Shown here piece after piece: positions 12,837-21,645 of a stretch of 64,000 nt of DNA. Each line of letters opens with the position of its first letter. Position 1 is the first letter of the stretch. The translations under genes were made by a program, and so were the position numbers. The notes under the pieces are model-generated. The model was not told the origin of the DNA. It ran no database searches and worked only from the letters and a program-made list of their open reading frames with translations. The DNA is taken from NCBI GenBank assembly GCA_903970555.1, contig CAJCJD010000040.1, positions 1-64,000 of the forward strand, read 5' to 3'. This DNA comes from Vulcanimicrobiota bacterium. Its GTDB lineage: Bacteria; Pseudomonadota; Gammaproteobacteria; Xanthomonadales; Rhodanobacteraceae.

Positions 12837-12908
12837 GTAACCTCTTAGAAAGCACTTGACAAGTTACTTTCGTTTGAATAACCTCTCAAATGACATTGAG
12901 GCGGTTAC
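12837..12908. promoter_or_regulatory. Putative CGNR-regulator operators and cassette promoter
   Basis: The divergent gap holds GTAACCTCT (12837-12845), TAACCTCT (12879-12886) and an inverted copy GAGGCGGTTAC (12898-12908). A consensus -35 TTGACA (12856-12861) is followed after 17 bases by TAACCT (12879-12884) as a -10, reading toward the hydrolase cassette. The second repeat coincides with this -10, which would suit repression. Which protein binds is inferred from position only. Confidence 0.55.
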
Positions 12909-12969: not shown

Positions 12970-13662
12970 ATGAGTAACGAGAAAGCAACTGTGGTGCTGG
13001 CCCATGGCGCATGGGCGGATGAGTCGAGCTGGAGCAAGGTGGTTACTCTACTCCAGGCTAGAGGCATTAAGGCAGTTACGTTCCGCCTGCCGCTCTCGTC
13101 GCTGGCTGACGATGTGGCCGCCCTCGACGGCGTGTTGGAACAGGTGGACGGCCCCGCGGTGCTGGTCGGTCACGCTTACGCCGGCGCAGTGATCGCGGCC
13201 ACGCACAGTGCCAAAGTGCGGGCGTTGGTCTATATCGCCGCGCTGGCTCCGGATCAGGGCGAGACGGTCGCCGATGTGTTCTACCGCAACGAGCACGATG
13301 ACAAGGCACCCAAACTTGCTCCAGGGAGCGACGGGCTGATCTGGCTGCCGACCGACGCCTTTGCTACGGCGTTTGCGCAACACGCAACGCCGCAGGAACA
13401 AAAATCCCTCGCGGCGGCGCAGCTTCCCATTTCGCCGGCATGCATCACTGTCCCGGTCGGGCATCCGCTCTGGAAGGAGGTGCCTGCCTGGTATCTCCTG
13501 GCGGAGCAGGACCACATGATTCCTGAAAAAACGCAGCGCTTCATGGCCGAACGCATGAAGGCGCGTATCAGCGCTTATCCCGTCGACCACCTGCCAAGTG
13601 TTACCGCGCCTGAGCTCGTTGAGGCGGTGATTGTCGACGCGGTGCGAAACACTGACGGTTGA
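12970..13662 (+). CDS. Alpha/beta-hydrolase-fold protein lacking the nucleophile serine
   Basis: A 230-residue protein of the alpha/beta-hydrolase superfamily, similar in layout to EstC/salicylate-esterase-like proteins. Seen: the N-terminal oxyanion segment LAHGAWADESSW, the nucleophile elbow and a late His (DHLPS). The elbow reads GHAYAG instead of GHSYGG, so Ala69 replaces the nucleophilic serine and another Ala replaces the second Gly. A canonical serine-esterase mechanism is therefore not possible. Either another residue serves or the protein has a binding role. A strong ribosome binding site (AGGAG) precedes the ATG. It is the first gene of a four-gene cassette (two hydrolase-fold proteins, an SDR, DUF427) divergent from the CGNR regulator. 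Confidence 0.85.
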   Translation: MSNEKATVVLAHGAWADESSWSKVVTLLQARGIKAVTFRLPLSSLADDVAALDGVLEQVDGPAVLVGHAYAGAVIAATHSAKVRALVYIAALAPDQGETVADVFYRNEHDDKAPKLAPGSDGLIWLPTDAFATAFAQHATPQEQKSLAAAQLPISPACITVPVGHPLWKEVPAWYLLAEQDHMIPEKTQRFMAERMKARISAYPVDHLPSVTAPELVEAVIVDAVRNTDG

Positions 13663-13772
13663 CCGGATTTCGATCCATGTTTTCACAACAAAGCATGTAC
13701 GCCGTGTTTCTCGTGAAACGGTTCTAGTCATTTCCCCCTTACATACCAATCCCTTCCAAAGGAGAAGTCACC

Positions 13773-14627
13773 ATGTCTGCCATTCGTTATCGCCGCGCCA
13801 ATGTCGATGGTCTATCCATTTTTTATCGCGAAGCGGGCAATGCAGGTAAACCAAAGTTGCTGCTGCTCCATGGCTTTCCGACCTCTAGCCATATGTTCCG
13901 CGATCTCATTCCGCTGCTCAGCGACTCGTTCCATATCATTGCGCCCGATCTCCCTGGGTTCGGTCAGTCGGATATGCCATCCCGAAGCCAATTCACGTAC
14001 ACGTTCGACAACATCGCCAATACCATCGATCGCTTCACAGAAGTCGTTGGGTTTGATCGCTTCGCTGTCTATGTCTTCGACTATGGCGCGCCAACCGGCT
14101 TTCGTATTGCCGCCAAGCATCCGGAGCGCATCACCGCGATCATTTCGCAAAACGGCAATGCCTATGTGGAAGGTCTCAGCGATGGTTGGAATCCCATTCG
14201 CGCGTATTGGGAAAAACCGTCCGATGCAAATCGCGAAGCGTTGCGCGGCTTTCTGAAACCGGAAGCGACACGTTGGCAGTACACCCATGGCGTCGCCGAT
14301 GAGTCGCTGGTTTCACCCGATGGTATCGCGCTCGATAACTACTATCTGGCGCGCGAGGGATCCGACGACGTCCAATTGGATTTGTTTCTCGATTATCAGA
14401 GCAACGTTGCTCTTTATCCGACATTTCAGGCTTATTTCCGCCAGCATCACCCGCGCTTCTTGGCGGTATGGGGCAAGGGCGATCCGTTCTTCCTGCCACC
14501 AGGTGCAGAAGCGTTCAGGCGCGACATACCCGATGCACAGGTTCGTTTCTTCGACACCGGGCATTTCGCGTTGGAAACGCACGCGAACGACATTGCCGAC
14601 GCCATCCGCACATTCTTAGTGGCCTAA
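13773..14627 (+). CDS. Alpha/beta hydrolase with Asp nucleophile (epoxide hydrolase/dehalogenase-like)
   Basis: A 284-residue alpha/beta-hydrolase-fold enzyme. Seen: HGFPTSSHMF (oxyanion region), DLPGFGQSD, a nucleophile elbow VFDYGAP with Asp103 in the nucleophile position, and a late catalytic His (DTGHFALETH). An Asp nucleophile is the mark of haloalkane dehalogenases, fluoroacetate dehalogenases and epoxide hydrolases, where an ester intermediate is hydrolysed by a His-activated water. The exact substrate cannot be read from sequence. An AAAGGAGAAG ribosome binding site precedes the ATG. It is the second gene of the cassette, 110 bases after the first, probably co-transcribed. Confidence 0.87.
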   Translation: MSAIRYRRANVDGLSIFYREAGNAGKPKLLLLHGFPTSSHMFRDLIPLLSDSFHIIAPDLPGFGQSDMPSRSQFTYTFDNIANTIDRFTEVVGFDRFAVYVFDYGAPTGFRIAAKHPERITAIISQNGNAYVEGLSDGWNPIRAYWEKPSDANREALRGFLKPEATRWQYTHGVADESLVSPDGIALDNYYLAREGSDDVQLDLFLDYQSNVALYPTFQAYFRQHHPRFLAVWGKGDPFFLPPGAEAFRRDIPDAQVRFFDTGHFALETHANDIADAIRTFLVA

Positions 14628-14660
14628 CAGAACGATGACAACTCGCGACGGGAGAAAGCC

Positions 14661-15431
14661 ATGTCCAACGCAACAGCAATAGTTACCGGCGCAAGCCAGG
14701 GTATTGGCCGTGCAGCGGCGATTCGTTTAGCCAAGGACTTTAATGCCGTCGTGCTCGTCGCGAGAAATCGTGATCATCTGTTGGAGACTGCCGAAGCCGT
14801 GAAGGCGAAGGGTGCCGAAGCGCTTATCGTGGATCTCGATCTGGCGGAACAGTCTGCGGCGAAGATCGTCGTTGAGAAAACACTGGCGACTTTCGGCCGC
14901 ATCGATGCACTACTCAATATCGCGGGAGCCGTTCCCCAGATCGACCTTTTCGACATGACGGATGAGCAGTGGGACGCCGGCATGGCACTGAAGCTACATG
15001 GTGCAAGGCGATTGACGATCGAAGCGTGGCCAGCGCTCAAGCAAGCCAACGGTTCCGTCGTGTTTACTTCAGGCAACTCGGCGATCTTCCCGAAAGCTCC
15101 GTATGCCGCAGTGGGCACGATCAACGCCGCCATCGCTGCGTTGGCAAAGGCATTCTCGGACCGGGGTATCACGGATGGCGTGCAGGTCAACAGCGTCCTG
15201 CCGGGGCCTGTGATGACAGGCCGGCGACGTTCCTATCTCGAACATTGGGCGCCTTTGCACAACATGACGGTCGACGAAGCCATGGAGCGTTTTCCGCGCG
15301 ATGCGGGCATTTCGCGGTATGGCCAACCCGAGGAGATTGCGGAACTGATGGCCTTCCTGGTGTCACCTGCGGCCCGGTGGATGACTGGCTCCATGCTTCG
15401 CATGGATGGTGGGGAAGTGAAGTCGGTCTAG
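14661..15431 (+). CDS. Short-chain dehydrogenase/reductase lacking the YxxxK pair
   Basis: A 256-residue protein with a Rossmann fold. Seen: the cofactor motif TGASQGIG near the N-terminus, NIAG in the middle, and a catalytic-type Ser (Ser137 in FTSGNS). In the active-site helix the canonical Tyr-xxx-Lys is not present. The local sequence is PYAAVGTINAAIAAL, where alignment by the following helix puts Val151 and Asn155 at the Tyr and Lys positions; Tyr148 is three residues too early. Such divergent SDRs may bind NAD(P) without normal dehydrogenase activity. Third gene of the cassette, 33 bases after the hydrolase, with a GGGAGAAAGCC binding site. Confidence 0.85.
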   Translation: MSNATAIVTGASQGIGRAAAIRLAKDFNAVVLVARNRDHLLETAEAVKAKGAEALIVDLDLAEQSAAKIVVEKTLATFGRIDALLNIAGAVPQIDLFDMTDEQWDAGMALKLHGARRLTIEAWPALKQANGSVVFTSGNSAIFPKAPYAAVGTINAAIAALAKAFSDRGITDGVQVNSVLPGPVMTGRRRSYLEHWAPLHNMTVDEAMERFPRDAGISRYGQPEEIAELMAFLVSPAARWMTGSMLRMDGGEVKSV

Positions 15432-15562
15432 TTTGGAGAGCCAGCGGAGGAGGGGGCTACCCACTGACCTGATTTCTCGAGCTTGAACGCGGTGCTATTC
15501 GTCCCATCTTTAAAAAGGTGGGGCGGTATCTGCCCATCATCATTCCACGAGGAGGCACGACC

Positions 15563-15961
15563 GTGACGAACTCAACTTCTCCCGCCAGCAGGCCCGCCAA
15601 AATACCCGGGCCGGATCACCCGATCACCGTCGAACCGAGTACGCGCCGCGTCGTCGTCAAAGTCGCTGGCCGTGTCGTCGCGGATACGCGCAACGCGCTC
15701 GTACTGAAAGAGGCGAATTATCCTGCTGTGCAATATATCCCGCGCGAAGACGTCGATATGAGCTTGCTGGAGCGGACGGAGCACGCGAGCTATTGCCCGT
15801 ACAAGGGTGAGGCCAGCTATTACAGCATTCCATCGGGTGGCGAGCGCGCAACGAACGCTGTCTGGACCTATGAGCATCCTTACGATTCCGTTGCATCGAT
15901 AAAGAACCATGTCGCGTTCTATGCCACTCGCATCGATGGGATCGAAGAGCTTGAGGCCTGA
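15563..15961 (+). CDS. DUF427-domain protein
   Basis: A 132-residue protein of the DUF427 family, small beta-rich proteins of unknown function widespread in bacteria and fungi. Seen: the family pattern RVVVKVAGRVVADTRNALVLKEA, PREDVDMSLLERT, CPYKGEASYY and a closing AFYATRID segment. The start was set at GTG 15563 because GGAGG lies 7 bases upstream; an earlier ATG at 15518 has no binding site. It is the last gene of the cassette with the two hydrolase-fold proteins and the SDR. It probably uses the same promoter, although a gap of 131 bases precedes it. Confidence 0.9.
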   Translation: MTNSTSPASRPAKIPGPDHPITVEPSTRRVVVKVAGRVVADTRNALVLKEANYPAVQYIPREDVDMSLLERTEHASYCPYKGEASYYSIPSGGERATNAVWTYEHPYDSVASIKNHVAFYATRIDGIEELEA

Positions 15962-16111: not shown

Positions 16112-16987
16112 TTAGCTGAGCCGTTGGAGATCGGAGATAAGTCCAGGCCCTGTTGGACGCCAGCCCAGTTGCTCTTGCGTCCACTGACTCGACGCGGGAA
16201 TGTCGAATGCAGCGAAGTGCGCGAGCCAGCCAAAATGATCGGCCGCTTCTTCGGGAGACTTGCTGACGACAGGCACGTTCAGATGCTTGCCGATGACTTC
16301 GGCAATGTCGCGAAGCGGAACGCCTTCCTCATCGACCGCGTGATATCGGGCCCCTGCGGAACCTTTCTCAAGTACGAGCCTATAGAGATGAGCCGCATCA
16401 AGCCGATGCACTGCAGGCCAGCGGTTCTGCCCGTCGCCGACGTATACCGAGACACCTTTCTCGCGCGCCACATCGATCAGATAAGTGATAAGCCCTTGTT
16501 TAACCGGATCGTGGACTTGCGGGAGCCGCATTACTGAAACGCGCACACCCAGCGCTTGCACGGACGTCGCAGCCTGCTCCGATGCGATGCGCGGAATTTC
16601 GGAGTCGGGCGCATCTTCCTCGGTCGTAAGGCGGCCCGGTGTGCGAGCAATCCCCGTACCGGAGGTGACAATGAAGGGGCGATCAGAACCAGCGAGTACT
16701 GAGCCGATTGCTTCAATGGCACGCCTGTCTGTTTCGCAGTTAGCTTGGAATTTCGAGAAGTCATGAATGAATGCGGTGTGTATCACGGCATCCGCAGCGG
16801 CGGCTCCGCTGCGCAAGCTATCGAGATCTTCCAGTGAGCCGCGATGCACATCCGCGCCTGCCGCGACAAGCGATGCGGTAGCCGCATCCGACCGCGCGAG
16901 GCCGAGTACCTTGTGCCCTGCGGCGATCAATTCATCGACAACGGCTGAGCCGATGAATCCACTTGCACCGGTGACAAAGACACGCAT
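16112..16987 (-). CDS. NAD-dependent epimerase/dehydratase-type (extended SDR) protein
   Basis: A 291-residue extended SDR. Seen: an N-terminal nucleotide-binding motif TGASGFIGSAVV, LARSDAA after the second strand (Arg favours NADP), and a central active-site region around residues 110-145 (SGTGIAR). A C-terminal segment (DVAREKGVSVYVGDGQNRWPAVHRLDAAHLYRL) is typical of the NAD(P)-binding epimerase/dehydratase relatives annotated as SDR family oxidoreductases. The usual YxxxK is not obvious, so the chemistry is uncertain. It is divergent from the XRE-type regulator at 17088, with 100 bases between the starts that include a palindrome, a layout typical of a regulator and its target gene. Confidence 0.82.
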   Translation of the reverse strand: MRVFVTGASGFIGSAVVDELIAAGHKVLGLARSDAATASLVAAGADVHRGSLEDLDSLRSGAAAADAVIHTAFIHDFSKFQANCETDRRAIEAIGSVLAGSDRPFIVTSGTGIARTPGRLTTEEDAPDSEIPRIASEQAATSVQALGVRVSVMRLPQVHDPVKQGLITYLIDVAREKGVSVYVGDGQNRWPAVHRLDAAHLYRLVLEKGSAGARYHAVDEEGVPLRDIAEVIGKHLNVPVVSKSPEEAADHFGWLAHFAAFDIPASSQWTQEQLGWRPTGPGLISDLQRLS

Positions 16988-17055
16988 AGTGAAACCCTTT
17001 TTATTGGACCAAGGGCTACTCTCGGCGCATAATCTATCGGGGTAAAGTAGTGGCT

Positions 17056-17069
17056 TTATACGGGTATAA
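17056..17069. promoter_or_regulatory. Palindromic operator candidate between epimerase and XRE regulator
   Basis: TTATAC-GG-GTATAA is a perfect 6-bp inverted repeat with a 2-base spacer, 18 bases before the regulator start codon and inside the 100-base divergent gap. A helix-turn-helix dimer would fit it. Binding by the adjacent XRE protein is an inference from position. Confidence 0.5.
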
Positions 17070-17087
17070 CGACTAACAGGATACGTA

Positions 17088-17927
17088 ATGCCTGTCGCAA
17101 ACGAAAACTTGCTGGGAATCTATCTCAGGGATCGGCGCACGAAACTCGATCCGGCAGCATTGGGCTTTGCCGCGACACGCAGACGTACGCCAGGGCTGCG
17201 GCGCGAAGAAGTGGCGCAGCGCGCGAATGTCAGTCCAACCTGGTACACGTGGCTTGAGCAAGGGCGTGGTGGTGCGCCTTCGGCCAACGTGCTCGATCGC
17301 ATCGCACACGCCTTGATGCTGACGGAAATCGAGCGCGAGCATATCTTCCTGCTCGCTCTGGGGCGTCCGCCTGAAGTTCGTTATCGCGCAGTCGAAGGTG
17401 TCACGCCACGATTGCAGCGCATACTCGACGCGCTGGAGTACAGCCCTGCCTTGGTGAAGACCTTCACGTGGGACATCGTTGGATGGAATCGCGCAGCGGC
17501 GGCAGTATTAGGCGACGGTAGAGAACTTGCACCCGAGCATCGCAACATTCTGCGCAGAATCTTCTGCGATCCTCAGGTTCGGGCGAGGCAGACGGATTGG
17601 GAAAGCGTTGCACGCTTCGCGGTAGGCGCATTTCGTGCGGATGTAGCGCGCGCCGGAGCATCCAAAGAAGTGGAAACGCTTGTCGATGAGTTGAGTCGAA
17701 TCAGCCCCGAATTCGAAGCGATATGGCGCGACCATGACGTGCGCGAGCATGGCGAAGGCATCAAATCGCTGAAGCATCCGCTTGTGGGTGTGATCGCATT
17801 GGAATATTCGGCGTTCGCTGTCGATGGCAGGCCCGATCTCAGCATGGTGATCTACCATCCGGCGACGCCCGAGGATGTGCAGCGGGTCAAAACGCTGATG
17901 AAATCCCTGCCTAAAAAAGCCAGGTAA
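17088..17927 (+). CDS. XRE-family regulator with MmyB-like ligand domain
   Basis: A 279-residue transcription factor. Residues 1 to about 85 form a Cro/C1-type helix-turn-helix (LRREEVAQRANVSPTWYTWLEQGR) and the rest is an MmyB-like PAS-type ligand-binding domain (for example TFTWDIVGWNRAAAAVLGD). Proteins of this type typically control a neighbouring SDR or oxidoreductase gene, and here the divergent neighbour is the epimerase-like gene at 16112-16987. The ligand is unknown. AGGATACGTA gives a ribosome binding site. The gene converges with the autotransporter gene and is separated from it by a strong hairpin. Confidence 0.92.
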   Translation: MPVANENLLGIYLRDRRTKLDPAALGFAATRRRTPGLRREEVAQRANVSPTWYTWLEQGRGGAPSANVLDRIAHALMLTEIEREHIFLLALGRPPEVRYRAVEGVTPRLQRILDALEYSPALVKTFTWDIVGWNRAAAAVLGDGRELAPEHRNILRRIFCDPQVRARQTDWESVARFAVGAFRADVARAGASKEVETLVDELSRISPEFEAIWRDHDVREHGEGIKSLKHPLVGVIALEYSAFAVDGRPDLSMVIYHPATPEDVQRVKTLMKSLPKKAR

Positions 17928-18048: not shown

Positions 18049-21000
18049 TTAGAACGTCCACGTGAAGCTCATGCGGGCCGACTGGTCCTTGGCGTGGCTG
18101 GCGAATTGGCCGTTGTAACTGACGTCGGCGGAAAACGACGGTGCCAACGCGAAACTCACACCGCCATCCACCACGCCGGCATGATGCGCCAACGGCACGC
18201 CTGCGACTTGGAAGGCATCGCCGCCGCTTTGGAATTGCAGGGTGCTAGCGGATGCCGTCGCGCCCCATGCTTGCTGCCAGGCCACGCCAGCATGCGCGTT
18301 GATATCGCCGCGGGCATCGAGCGCAAACACGCCACGAACACCTAGCGCCGCATCGGTCGAGGAGCTGGTGTTTGCGTTGATGTTGAGCGCGGCGGCACCG
18401 CTGTTTTCTGACGCTGCGTCTGTATGCAGTTGCACACGTGCAACATTTAGGTAGGGCGCGATGGAGTTACGGCCGATGGTGAAAGCGTAGCTGCCATCGA
18501 CATAAGCCTGAGCAGTGTCGGCGTCGTAGTGACTTCCGTTGCTGCTCGAAAAATTGCCGAACGCGACATCGCGATTGGTATTCACGCTTTGCCACGCATA
18601 GGCTGCGCCGCCTAGCAATTGGAATGCACCCGCATGCACGCTGCCGTAGATGCCGAAGTGCGTGCCGGTGGTATGCGAGGACGAATCGAGTGCGTCGACG
18701 CGTGCACTGTTCTGACTTGAGCCAATCACTGCACCGAGACGAGCAATGCCCAGGGGCAGATCAGCACCAACCAGCAATCCGCTGCCATCTGCTTGCAGGC
18801 GTGCGGCATCGCCATTGCTATCGTTTGCGCCCCAATGCCCCCATCCGGAAGTCCAGGCGGTCACGCCACCATCGGTGGCAGCGCTCAGTCCGTTAGCGCC
18901 GTTGCTCAGGCCGAGGAGGTGATTGTTAATGGCGTCGCGGATGTAACGGCTATCGTCGATCAGCGCAGTGCGAGTGCTGGCATAGATCTGGCCCGAGAGC
19001 AGGTCAAAAGCATGCTGCGCCGTCAGCGCGTCGGTCTGCACCAAGGCGTTATAGACAGAGCTGTTCCAGCCGAGCGCTTCGACAGCGTTGGCGGTGGCCT
19101 GTTGATTTGGAGTCGCTGCAACGCTGACGAAGCTGATGTCGTTGCGCTCCAGCGACAAGGTGACGTTGTTGCTGCCATAAGTGAGTACAGGAGTCAGGAA
19201 GGTAAGACTCGAGGTCGCCGATGCAAATTGACCTGTAACGCCCTGGCCTGCAGTGAGAATGATGTAGTTTGTGCGGGGAGTCCAGGTGCCGGCCTGTGCC
19301 AATACCAAGGTGCTACCGCCTTGGATGGTTGCCTTGCCGCTGACTGCGAGTAGATCAGATTGACCACTGGGCGTTGCATCAATGTTGAGCGTACCGCTCG
19401 CGGCCTGCGTGTAGTTGCCCTGGATCGTCAGCGTGCCGATCGATCCGCCAGGCCACACGGTGCCGTTGTTCACCACGTTGCCGTCAATCGTGCCGTGTCC
19501 GCGTAGGGTGCCCGCTGTGGCGACGGTGACATTGCCGTCGAGCGTTGCCGAAGGAGTAGTGCTGTCGCCCACCTCAAGGGTGCCGCTCTGCACGGTGGTG
19601 GCACCACCGAAAGCATTGTTGCCATCGAGCACCAGTGTGCCACCGCCGGTCTTGGTGAGCGTGTAGCTGCCACCGGTTTCCGTCACATTGCCAACTTGGG
19701 TTGCAGTGTTGCCGCTATCGACTTCCAGGGTCGTATTGCCTTGCACACTGATCGGATTGCTGATGCTGAGATCATTGGCGTACGTCACCGCCGCGCCTGT
19801 CGTCACCAGTGTTCCGGTGCCGAGTGCCGCATTGTTGCCCAGTACAAGATTGCCGCCATCCAGCGTGGTCGTGCCGCTATAACTGCTGGCGCCGTTCAAG
19901 GTGGTCGTGCCTGCGCCAATCATCACGCTTGCGAAATTGGAAATCGCACAGCTGTAGCTGAAGCTGTTGCCGGTGCCAGGCGTGATAGTGAGGGTGCTGG
20001 TACCCGTACCACCCGAAATATTGCCGTTGATCTGCGCCGTGCCACCGAGAATCTGCAAGCTGCTGTTGCCGCTGCCGAGGTCAACGGCAAGATTGCTGCT
20101 GTCGGCAGTGATCGTGCCGTAATTGATCACCGTGGCGTTGTTGCCGCCGGTGTAAACCGCCGCCGCGGTGCTGCCGCCGCCTTCAAGCGTGCCACCGGCA
20201 AGATTGGTGATGGTCACCGTATACGCATTCGCCGCGCCCGTGACGGCGATCGCCGAATCGCTTTGGCCGCGAATCAGCCCACTGTTGGTCACGCTGGTAT
20301 TGCCGTAGATGCCCTCGATCGGAATCGGCAGATCGGTAGTCGGATCTTTGTCGATGCCGGCGAGCGTAATGCCGCGACCGATGCCGGTGTTGGCGGTGCC
20401 GTCGGCATTGGTGGCGGAGTTGAGGCCGAGGATCGTGCCGGAGTTTACGATGGTACCGCCGCCGACCGTGATGCCTTCGCTATTGTCGTCGTAGGCGTGC
20501 AGCGATTCGATCGTGCCGGTGTTGGTAATATTGACCAGTCCGTCGACGTCGACACCATCGCCATCGCGGGTCACGCCGTTACCGATAATCGTACCGTGGT
20601 TGACGACCGTCACGAGCTCATTGCCGTTGAAGCCATCGATGTTCATACCCGAGCCATCGTCACCCTGAATCACGCCACCCGCATTATTGGTGACCGACAT
20701 GGTGTAGGCGCCATTGGTGGTGACGTCGGTATTGCCACCCGTAATGCCATGACGCGCACCTTCGATCTTGCCGCTGGTGTCGTTGACGACGCTGATTCCC
20801 GTATTGCTTTGCGCATCGACGCCATCGCTGCTATCCGTGCTGCCGGGATTGTTGGTCGCCAGGATAAGGCCGTTGTTGTAGACCTGACCGTTGATCCCCG
20901 GACGCGCAGCGTCAGCCTCGTTCGCTTCGATGATGCCGCCGGCATAGTTGTTGACGATGTTTGTGCCGGACGTGATGGCGTTGAAATCGATGGCCTGTGC

Positions 21001-21447
21001 GCCGCCAGCCGACTGGTTGAGTGAATTGAGCGTGCCGTAATTATTGAACGTGACATTGCTGTTCGACTTGTTCATCTGGATGACGTCATCGTCAGCCGTC
21101 TGCATCAAAGCGCCTGCATTATTGGTCACGGTGAGCGTAAGGCCACCGGTATTGTCGCGAATGTCGCGCGCTGCATTTGAGCCAGTAGCGGTTTGCTCCA
21201 GGATGCCGCTGTTAACGATGGTGGCATTGCCGGTAACGGTAATGGCATTGCTTCCGCTGGTCGCTACGATTAGCGACGCACCGCTATCGATGGTCCCCGT
21301 GTCACCGGTGGCCAACGTTTGCGCCGTGGTATTCGTGCCTGTAGTTATCGTGAAACTGGCTGCGGTGGGTGTCGGGTTCTTGGCGGCCGCTTGGCCATAG
21401 TCAAACAACGCAATGAGAATGACGGCAGTGAGCGCTTTCTGCTTCAT
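18049..21447 (-). CDS. Type V autotransporter with passenger beta-helix and beta-barrel
   Basis: A 1132-residue classical autotransporter exposed on the cell surface. Seen: a signal peptide (MKQKALTAVILIALFDYGQAAA), then a long Asn/Thr/Gly-rich passenger with repeated VTNSGTI / VNHGTI-like strands typical of a right-handed beta-helix. One or two passenger-associated-transport repeats follow (TKTGGGTLVLDGNNAFGG...SGTLEVG), and about 280 C-terminal residues form the outer-membrane beta-barrel, ending in ...SFTWTF with the expected terminal Phe. No protease motif is apparent, so an adhesin or aggregation role is more likely than an enzymatic one. ATG 21447 was chosen for the clean signal peptide; ATG 21480 adds eleven residues. 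It lies downstream of the Tad locus and DUF2968 gene on the same strand. Confidence 0.92.
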   Translation of the reverse strand: MKQKALTAVILIALFDYGQAAAKNPTPTAASFTITTGTNTTAQTLATGDTGTIDSGASLIVATSGSNAITVTGNATIVNSGILEQTATGSNAARDIRDNTGGLTLTVTNNAGALMQTADDDVIQMNKSNSNVTFNNYGTLNSLNQSAGGAQAIDFNAITSGTNIVNNYAGGIIEANEADAARPGINGQVYNNGLILATNNPGSTDSSDGVDAQSNTGISVVNDTSGKIEGARHGITGGNTDVTTNGAYTMSVTNNAGGVIQGDDGSGMNIDGFNGNELVTVVNHGTIIGNGVTRDGDGVDVDGLVNITNTGTIESLHAYDDNSEGITVGGGTIVNSGTILGLNSATNADGTANTGIGRGITLAGIDKDPTTDLPIPIEGIYGNTSVTNSGLIRGQSDSAIAVTGAANAYTVTITNLAGGTLEGGGSTAAAVYTGGNNATVINYGTITADSSNLAVDLGSGNSSLQILGGTAQINGNISGGTGTSTLTITPGTGNSFSYSCAISNFASVMIGAGTTTLNGASSYSGTTTLDGGNLVLGNNAALGTGTLVTTGAAVTYANDLSISNPISVQGNTTLEVDSGNTATQVGNVTETGGSYTLTKTGGGTLVLDGNNAFGGATTVQSGTLEVGDSTTPSATLDGNVTVATAGTLRGHGTIDGNVVNNGTVWPGGSIGTLTIQGNYTQAASGTLNIDATPSGQSDLLAVSGKATIQGGSTLVLAQAGTWTPRTNYIILTAGQGVTGQFASATSSLTFLTPVLTYGSNNVTLSLERNDISFVSVAATPNQQATANAVEALGWNSSVYNALVQTDALTAQHAFDLLSGQIYASTRTALIDDSRYIRDAINNHLLGLSNGANGLSAATDGGVTAWTSGWGHWGANDSNGDAARLQADGSGLLVGADLPLGIARLGAVIGSSQNSARVDALDSSSHTTGTHFGIYGSVHAGAFQLLGGAAYAWQSVNTNRDVAFGNFSSSNGSHYDADTAQAYVDGSYAFTIGRNSIAPYLNVARVQLHTDAASENSGAAALNINANTSSSTDAALGVRGVFALDARGDINAHAGVAWQQAWGATASASTLQFQSGGDAFQVAGVPLAHHAGVVDGGVSFALAPSFSADVSYNGQFASHAKDQSARMSFTWTF

Positions 21448-21645
21448 GAAGTGGCTGTCCCCTGGGTTATCGCAACCCATAATCTTTGAGGGGCTGTGCG
21501 CACTTTTGATGACAATGAAATGACATCGTCAGATTATTGTCAGCGATGGCATCGCTCGGGCGTAAGGCTCTATTTCATACGTCAATCGCAGGCGAGGGGA
21601 GCGTAAGCTTTTACGTCGGCTACTCGGTCGATACGCGGTCGGCAA

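Follow-up and report, generated by a model that had tools for sequence, protein, structure and literature searches.

In tomato methylketone synthase I (ShMKS1), a decarboxylase of 3-keto acids, the Ser-His-Asp triad has become Ala-His-Asn (PMC11644291), and in cofactor-free dioxygenases of the same fold (HOD type) a His-Asp base suffices, the Ser is dispensable and natural members have Ser replaced by Ala (PMC10548524). Among short-chain dehydrogenases/reductases (SDRs), BacG, entered as "Reductase", converts epoxy-3E-H2HPP to epoxy-4S-H4HPP (PMC9147277), AerF carries the title double bond reductase, and in plant SDRs including isopiperitenone reductase a Tyr/Glu swap ended the native activity and switched the enzymes between ene reduction and ketoreduction (PMC4988501). 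Here, we describe a gene cassette in a 64,000-nucleotide stretch of DNA, referred to below as the window (positions 1 to 64,000 of contig CAJCJD010000040.1, assembly GCA_903970555.1, from a Vulcanimicrobiota bacterium assigned by GTDB to the Rhodanobacteraceae; the contig, C40, belongs to a 4.5-Mb genome in 247 contigs). In this cassette an alpha/beta-hydrolase-fold protein (P0001) and an SDR (P0003) both depart from the active site of their family, on either side of a hydrolase with an Asp nucleophile (P0002) and beside a divergent regulator of the ABATE/CGNR type (P0005). Beyond an account of the regulator Jann_2411, the portion of which drawn on here names no operator or target enzymes (PMC2954205), literature searches returned nothing on the cassette, on CGNR regulators or on SDRs with a K-G-x-N pattern, most subscription papers lying outside their scope.

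An earlier note on this DNA had read Ala69 in the GHAYAG of P0001, Val151 and Asn155 in the VGTIN of P0003, and Asp103 in P0002. All of these readings hold, and the changes are fixed in orthologues. The note had reasoned that intact Ser and YxxxK in homologues of the same cassette would point to isolated mutations, and had called for a comparison of subfamilies. Ser69 occurs in none of 90 rows of the P0001 clade, and Tyr or Lys in none of 50 SDR rows, which marks a distinct set; the substitutions are conserved throughout, and an isolated mutation or sequencing error is thereby rejected. The note's idea of an unusual reaction sequence stands after this comparison. Because the changed sites are conserved, we take both proteins to be functional, and the precedents above favor chemistry over binding alone; such fixed replacements suggest that the enzymes still work, by an altered chemistry, and are not broken.

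A hydrolase-fold protein without a nucleophile

P0001 (12970..13662, plus strand; Abhydrolase_6) has GHAYAG beginning at residue 67 of the translation, with Ala at 69, the nucleophile position, and with Asp181, Asp206 and His207 present. All four of these residues occur together in 90/90 rows with at least 50% identity to P0001 (86 distinct sequences). In the 48 rows below 50% identity (46 distinct), Ser69, Asp181 and His207 are found without exception, and position 206 is Ser in 45 and Gly in three. Thus, Ser69Ala in this clade goes with a second switch at position 206, adjoining the catalytic histidine. When 88 rows were compared with 30, seven positions split the groups (at least 97% versus at most 10%), 69 and 206 among them; the window and the identical locus L001 are both counted in the 88-row and 90-row sets. 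Rows covering less than 80% of P0001 or holding internal stops were removed before counting, which drops one frameshifted copy. That copy, on a plasmid of Streptomyces sp. NBC_00984 (L118:6241-6928), is a match split over two frames, unannotated beside annotated P0002 and SDR genes, and looks like a decaying gene.

In the tree of P0001 homologues, the Ala rows form one side of a single branch (support 100/100, recovered in 100% of 200 bootstrap trees). Since all 90 rows carry Ala69 within one supported branch, the loss of the nucleophile is taken to be old and fixed; over 86 sequences the alanine is encoded by GCC (65), GCG (11) and GCT (10). Rows from Actinomycetota and Acidobacteriota are interspersed among Pseudomonadota, as expected after horizontal transfer, with the qualification that part of the rows are metagenome bins that may be misassigned. 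The nearest named relatives are Dyella and Lysobacterales loci. In an order-level sample of 200 genomes plus our own, the four of 32 loci at 60% identity or more, own included, read HAYAG, and the other 28 read GHS. Order-level samples of 200, 199 and 150 genomes held no near-full-length match between 45% and 60% identity, and three locus rows at 52-56% identity (L119, L115, L110) carry Ala69. One point tells against reading too much into this uniformity: genome contigs were scanned with Ala-bearing queries, and from at least 535 relatives the 80 best were retained as loci, all of them with Ala at 69; the sample shows no intermediates at 46-50% identity, but such forms may exist.

An AlphaFold2 model of P0001 (pLDDT 95.9; L119 omitted from the input alignment) gave 40 leading structural matches at Z 24.2-28.1, the next entry falling at 22.0. 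They comprise hydroxynitrile lyases (HNL), SABP2/MES proteins including MES16, polyneuridine aldehyde esterase (PNAE), the pyrethroid hydrolase PytH, BioH3 and MKS1, together with two bacterial hydrolases, 8hfw and 6tj2. As modeled, then, the overall fold belongs to the HNL/SABP2/MKS1 group of alpha/beta hydrolases. The MKS1 entries align at Z 24.2-25.6 with rmsd 2.8-3.1 over 224-226 residues and 16-17% identity, and the family profile gives a weak match to MKS1 sequences (3sty, 9.3e-5). The Ser nucleophile of the serine esterases in this group is replaced by Ala69 in all 90 clade rows. The Ala-His-Asn set of MKS1 is matched in its Ala and His and departs in its third member, where P0001 and every clade row have Asp181; P0001 may still act like MKS1 despite this Asp. 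Because both His and Asp are retained, acid-base chemistry is the economical inference.

Two other mechanisms would use the same residues. P0001 could be an HOD-like oxygenase that works without a cofactor, with His/Asp deprotonating a hydroxy-enone and Ala69 favoring O2 in the oxyanion hole, and some such dioxygenases do have Ala at the elbow and require only His-Asp (PMC10548524). However, the model places P0001 in the HNL/SABP2/MKS1 group, and nothing in this analysis points to an N-heteroaromatic substrate; we consider this very improbable. The 50 structural matches listed include none of HOD type, an observation that does not bear on the choice. Alternatively, the protein may still be a hydrolase in which His207/Asp206 activate water directly. 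The strict pairing of Asp206 with Ala69 (90/90 versus 0/48 rows) is what would be expected if the two changes had rebuilt the base, but activation of water by a nucleophile-free site is the mechanism of neither MKS1 nor HOD, and this too appears distinctly improbable.

The SDR with a replaced tetrad

In P0003 (14661..15431, plus strand; adh_short_C2), VGTIN runs from Val151 to Asn155. The earlier note described a departure from Tyr-xxx-Lys at two positions. Tyr and Lys are indeed gone, but the departure is wider: all four positions of the canonical Asn-Ser-Tyr-Lys tetrad have changed, to Lys111, Gly138, Val151 and Asn155. The cofactor-binding Rossmann motif TGxxxGxG is present as TGASQGIG at residue 9, with G10, G14 and G16 invariant. 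We aligned 50 cassette-type SDR rows (48 distinct sequences) with outgroups, AerF, BacG, and the structures FabG 2p68 and 3t4x. The tetrad positions read K-G-V-N in 49 rows and K-G-I-N in one, a count that includes a partial SDR (L121) omitted from a separate alignment (A4). The same positions are N-S-Y-K in FabG 2p68 and 3t4x, K-G-S-N in AerF and K-G-N-N in BacG, so that the KGVN of P0003 follows the AerF/BacG-like pattern. In twelve other SDR relatives, K-G-x-N occurs seven times and N-S-Y-K five times; across the rows compared, tetrad positions are changed at all four or at none. The family NF004779 gave one match above its cut-off, in L124, which reads K-G-G-N, and a weaker one, in L125, which reads N-S-Y-K. 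Tyr148 was considered as a shifted catalytic Tyr and rejected, for some homologues have His, Leu, Ala, Phe or Thr there. A profile search at 1e-45 in 200 genomes found the SDR in our own genome only. In a Variovorax genome (sp. IB41, L112:10684-12272), two tandem K-G-V-N SDRs follow P0002, encoded on the other strand from P0001.

AerF is the top Protein Data Bank (PDB) match to the SDR family profile (1e-39) and shares 29% identity with P0003 over 249 residues. The step that BacG carries out amounts to addition of a hydride to a C=C bond. On the likeness of P0003 to AerF and BacG in the K-G-x-N site, and on the precedent of the Tyr/Glu swap, we predict C=C reduction, and P0003 is most likely an NADPH-dependent C=C reductase. 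Three observations weigh against this assignment. The K-G-x-N pattern is also found in uncharacterised SDRs (seven of the twelve other relatives), and C=C reduction is therefore not implied by it; with the single P0003 sequence as query, AerF ranks third after 3t4x and 3ucx; and by fold the P0003 model (pLDDT 88.9; L120, L118 and L119 omitted from its alignment) is as near to ordinary ketoreductases as to AerF (Z 30.7, the 50 rows spanning 30.6-32.2). The K-G-x-N signature may single out ene-reductase SDRs from the many whose annotation says no more than oxidoreductase.

The earlier note had also suggested that two members of the set only bind substrate. In its fullest form, P0001 and P0003 would be catalytically dead partners, binding substrate or NADPH as chaperones, sensors or complex subunits for P0002. 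The loss of a nucleophile and of an entire SDR tetrad speaks for this, as does the fact that P0002 is the commoner enzyme at the operator sites described below. Against it, Asp181 and His207 are retained in all 90 P0001 clade rows, AerF and BacG, both described as reductases, share the SDR replacement, and P0002 does not depend on P0001, as a P0002 homologue is present at 14 operator sites and in nine of these 3-kb loci stands without one of P0001. Binding alone is thus not favored, and we regard dead partners as quite improbable.

A regulator-hydrolase module and its operator

P0005 (12183..12815, minus strand), divergent from the enzymes, matches both PF07336 (2.8e-20) and PF11706 (1.5e-18) in Pfam and is thereby assigned to the ABATE-CGNR zinc-finger transcription regulators. 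Between it and P0001 lies a putative operator/promoter region (12838..12908, plus strand) with TAACC at 12838-12842, TTGACAAGTTAC at 12856-12867, a second TAACC at 12879-12883 and GGTTAC at 12903-12908. The 12-mer holds TTGACA, which is the sigma-70 -35 consensus, and the operator would therefore overlap the promoter; a simple generic promoter scan did not list this region. The consensus over related loci is TAACC, 13 bases, TTGACAAGTTAc, and then a second TAACC. The core ACAAGTTA is found in 62 of 68 intergenic regions between the regulator and the Ala-bearing hydrolase, where 20 rounds of mononucleotide shuffling lead one to expect 0.3; these are regions of 40-400 bases with a divergent full-length regulator, and the 68 include close relatives, which do not count as independent. 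The six exceptions consist of four with TTGACAGGTTA, one with TTGACTAGTTA and one without TTGACA. In our own genome the exact 12-mer TTGACAAGTTAC occurs once. A wider regulon there was rejected, since the five one-mismatch sites are at chance level (17 sites for the reversed control pattern versus 6).

A search for the motif alone (TAACCN{12,14}TTGACARGTTA) found 11 and 9 sites in sets of 179 and 170 genomes, the reversed control giving 0 and 3. At these 20 sites, own genome included, the surrounding 3-kb loci hold a regulator homologue in 19 (three of them partial), a P0002 homologue in 14 and a P0001 homologue in six. From the first two counts the core is the regulator with the Asp hydrolase. 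That P0001 adjoins just six of 20 operator sites tells against giving it a central place, and P0001 is accordingly accessory. For five of the nine P0002 sites that lack P0001, or for related genomes (G046, G081, G095, G121, G135), the best match to P0001 anywhere in the genome is below 50% identity. One operator site without P0002 (L157) faces an open reading frame (ORF) that resembles, by eye, an FAD-dependent oxidoreductase. In Neorhizobium petrolearium (L119:2086), an operator-like site precedes a gene of the flavin reductase family (2158-2811) that lies close to the regulator and could be an additional target.

P0002 (13773..14627, plus strand; Abhydrolase_1) is the enzyme most constantly found with the regulator. 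Its Asp103 sits within VFDYGAP, and Asp103, Asp237 and His264 are invariant in 28/28 aligned rows (the window and 27 of 84 homologues). An Asp nucleophile with His and an acid residue is thus present as in haloalkane dehalogenases, mostly of the DhaA types, which make up most of the top PDB matches and span the N-terminal half. In DhaA, the alignment has Asn in HGNP and Trp after the nucleophile, residues that we take to be halide-binding; P0002 has Phe35 and Tyr104 at these two positions, and membership among the dehalogenases was rejected for this reason. P0002 may instead act in the manner of an epoxide hydrolase, enzymes that have two cap-domain tyrosines. Three P0002 relatives under the same operator (L177-L179) have N-termini that resemble signal peptides by eye, and some members of the family may be exported.

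Of the 80 Ala-hydrolase loci, 74 have P0002, 65 the regulator, 42 the SDR, 19 a TMEM175-type protein, 17 a haloacid-dehalogenase-II-like protein and one DUF427. These are lower bounds because some contigs end early; at least 45% identity was required for the regulator and DUF427, and a P0005 match with an internal stop (L044) was removed. The TMEM175-type membrane protein (PF06736) often lies between or beside P0001 and P0002, as in L066:7286-7885. ORF clustering, which was disturbed by shadow ORFs, served solely to spot the TMEM175-type and HAD-II neighbors. Among the tracked genes, the arrangement regulator, P0001, P0002, SDR recurs most often (25 of 80 loci). The set is sparsely distributed: in a phylum-level sample, P0001 orthologues (E <= 1e-50) and SDR orthologues (E <= 1e-55) were each found in three of 398 genomes, own included. 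We read the gene set as mobile among many soil and plant-associated bacteria, and from the gene content above the description that fits it best is a CGNR-P0002 module, with the two enzymes of changed active site as frequent add-ons.

How firmly the SDR belongs to this module is less clear, and it may be a loose neighbor acting elsewhere, with only the regulator, P0001 and P0002 belonging together. It is absent from 38 of the 80 loci, 31 of which have more than 2.5 kb past P0002. Further, protein distances over 37 four-gene loci correlate at 0.82 for P0001-P0002 and 0.68 for P0001-P0005 and at only 0.24 for P0001-P0003 (as high in 39 of 2000 permutations). A same-genus genome (G174) has the regulator, P0001 and P0002 in a 13-kb stretch within which no SDR or DUF427 match was found. 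On these three grounds, which count against a single shared pathway, the SDR is the loosest member. On the other side, it stands next to P0002 on the same strand in 39 of 42 SDR loci (by order of tracked genes, between which untracked ones may intervene); the Variovorax SDRs come after P0002, in an operon that a separate operator precedes; and locus L120 keeps regulator, operator, P0002 and SDR and has lost P0001. A merely neighboring SDR is therefore, in our estimate, unlikely.

The DUF427 protein P0004 (15563..15961, plus strand; DUF427/NTP_transf_9, PF04248 6.8e-35) is a neighbor outside the conserved cassette. Its start is likely the GTG at 15563, placed by eye after a GAGGAGG-like site, instead of 15518. 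The four-gene set with DUF427 that the earlier note envisaged is not borne out, the SDR itself being present in 42 of 80 loci, and DUF427 was rejected as a pathway member on its single occurrence and on its absence from the same-genus stretch. Downstream lies a divergent pair (16112-17927) that is missing, at 45% identity or more, from all 80 cassette loci: P0006 resembles an NAD-dependent epimerase, and P0007 is an MmyB-type HTH regulator. The pair is followed at 18049-21480 by a repeat-rich ORF of 1143 amino acids that looks autotransporter-like by eye.

Proposed function and the closest known systems

Taken together, we propose an inducible module that spreads horizontally. The CGNR/ABATE regulator would bind repeated (A/G)GTTAC-type half-sites, a motif that is observed, overlapping the promoter between regulator and enzymes. 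P0002, the constant enzyme, would hydrolyze an electrophile such as an epoxide, and P0003 would serve as an NADPH-dependent C=C (conjugate) reductase with a K-G-x-N site. P0001, with covalent catalysis lost and His207/Asp181 and the extra Asp206 kept, would perform acid-base chemistry on a carbonyl-type substrate, for which decarboxylation, C-C lyase action or isomerisation, as in ShMKS1, are candidates. Their joint role may be the detoxification or breakdown of a single family of unsaturated small molecules, possibly of plant origin. Each reaction and substrate here is predicted, and we consider the scheme as a whole about evenly poised between right and wrong; we put a little more trust in the C=C reductase role of the SDR than in any one reaction for P0001. 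More tentatively, and with slightly less than even expectation, P0001 may found a family of bacterial acid-base enzymes that have the alpha/beta-hydrolase fold without its nucleophile and are recognizable by coupled Ser69Ala and Ser/Gly206Asp changes. The family would have spread horizontally over at least three phyla, accompanied by a CGNR regulator and the defined operator that this regulator reads. A K-G-x-N SDR, often its partner, would be a C=C reductase dedicated to the same route, and bacteria of soil and plants would have in it a new means of degradation or detoxification. What could pass for degenerate active sites would thereby become testable enzyme families, including a large bacterial clade without the serine, as in MKS1.

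The closest described enzymes resemble the cassette proteins in part. ShMKS1 (PDB 3stt-3sty), in the portion of its account drawn on, is like P0001 in its MES/HNL-group alpha/beta-hydrolase fold, its Ala at the nucleophile place and its retained His, and differs in being a plant enzyme with Asn at the acid place, where P0001 has Asp181 (and Asp206 in addition). The HOD-type dioxygenases, as partly described in their source, differ from P0001 in acting on N-heteroaromatic substrates. AerF (PDB 6jh7) and BacG/YwfH (PDB 3u49) share with P0003 the SDR fold and K-G-x-N in place of N-S-Y-K, with Ser and Asn, respectively, where P0003 has Val151; in contrast to these two, the annotated cassette neighborhoods seen gave no sign of a peptide-antibiotic gene cluster. 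Isopiperitenone reductase, as far as its account was drawn on, parallels the proposed P0003 in being an SDR that has lost its catalytic Tyr and acts on C=C bonds in place of C=O, but in it the Tyr alone is changed, to Glu, and Ser, Lys and Asn remain (PMC4988501). P0002 has the Asp-nucleophile alpha/beta-hydrolase core of haloalkane dehalogenases and epoxide hydrolases, with HGFP and Asp-Tyr against the HGNP and Asp-Trp of DhaA. Finally, P0005 belongs to the same two-domain ABATE/CGNR family as Jann_2411, on the part of that account used here (PMC2954205), and for such regulators the cassette supplies a candidate for the operator and an enzyme that is frequently the target.

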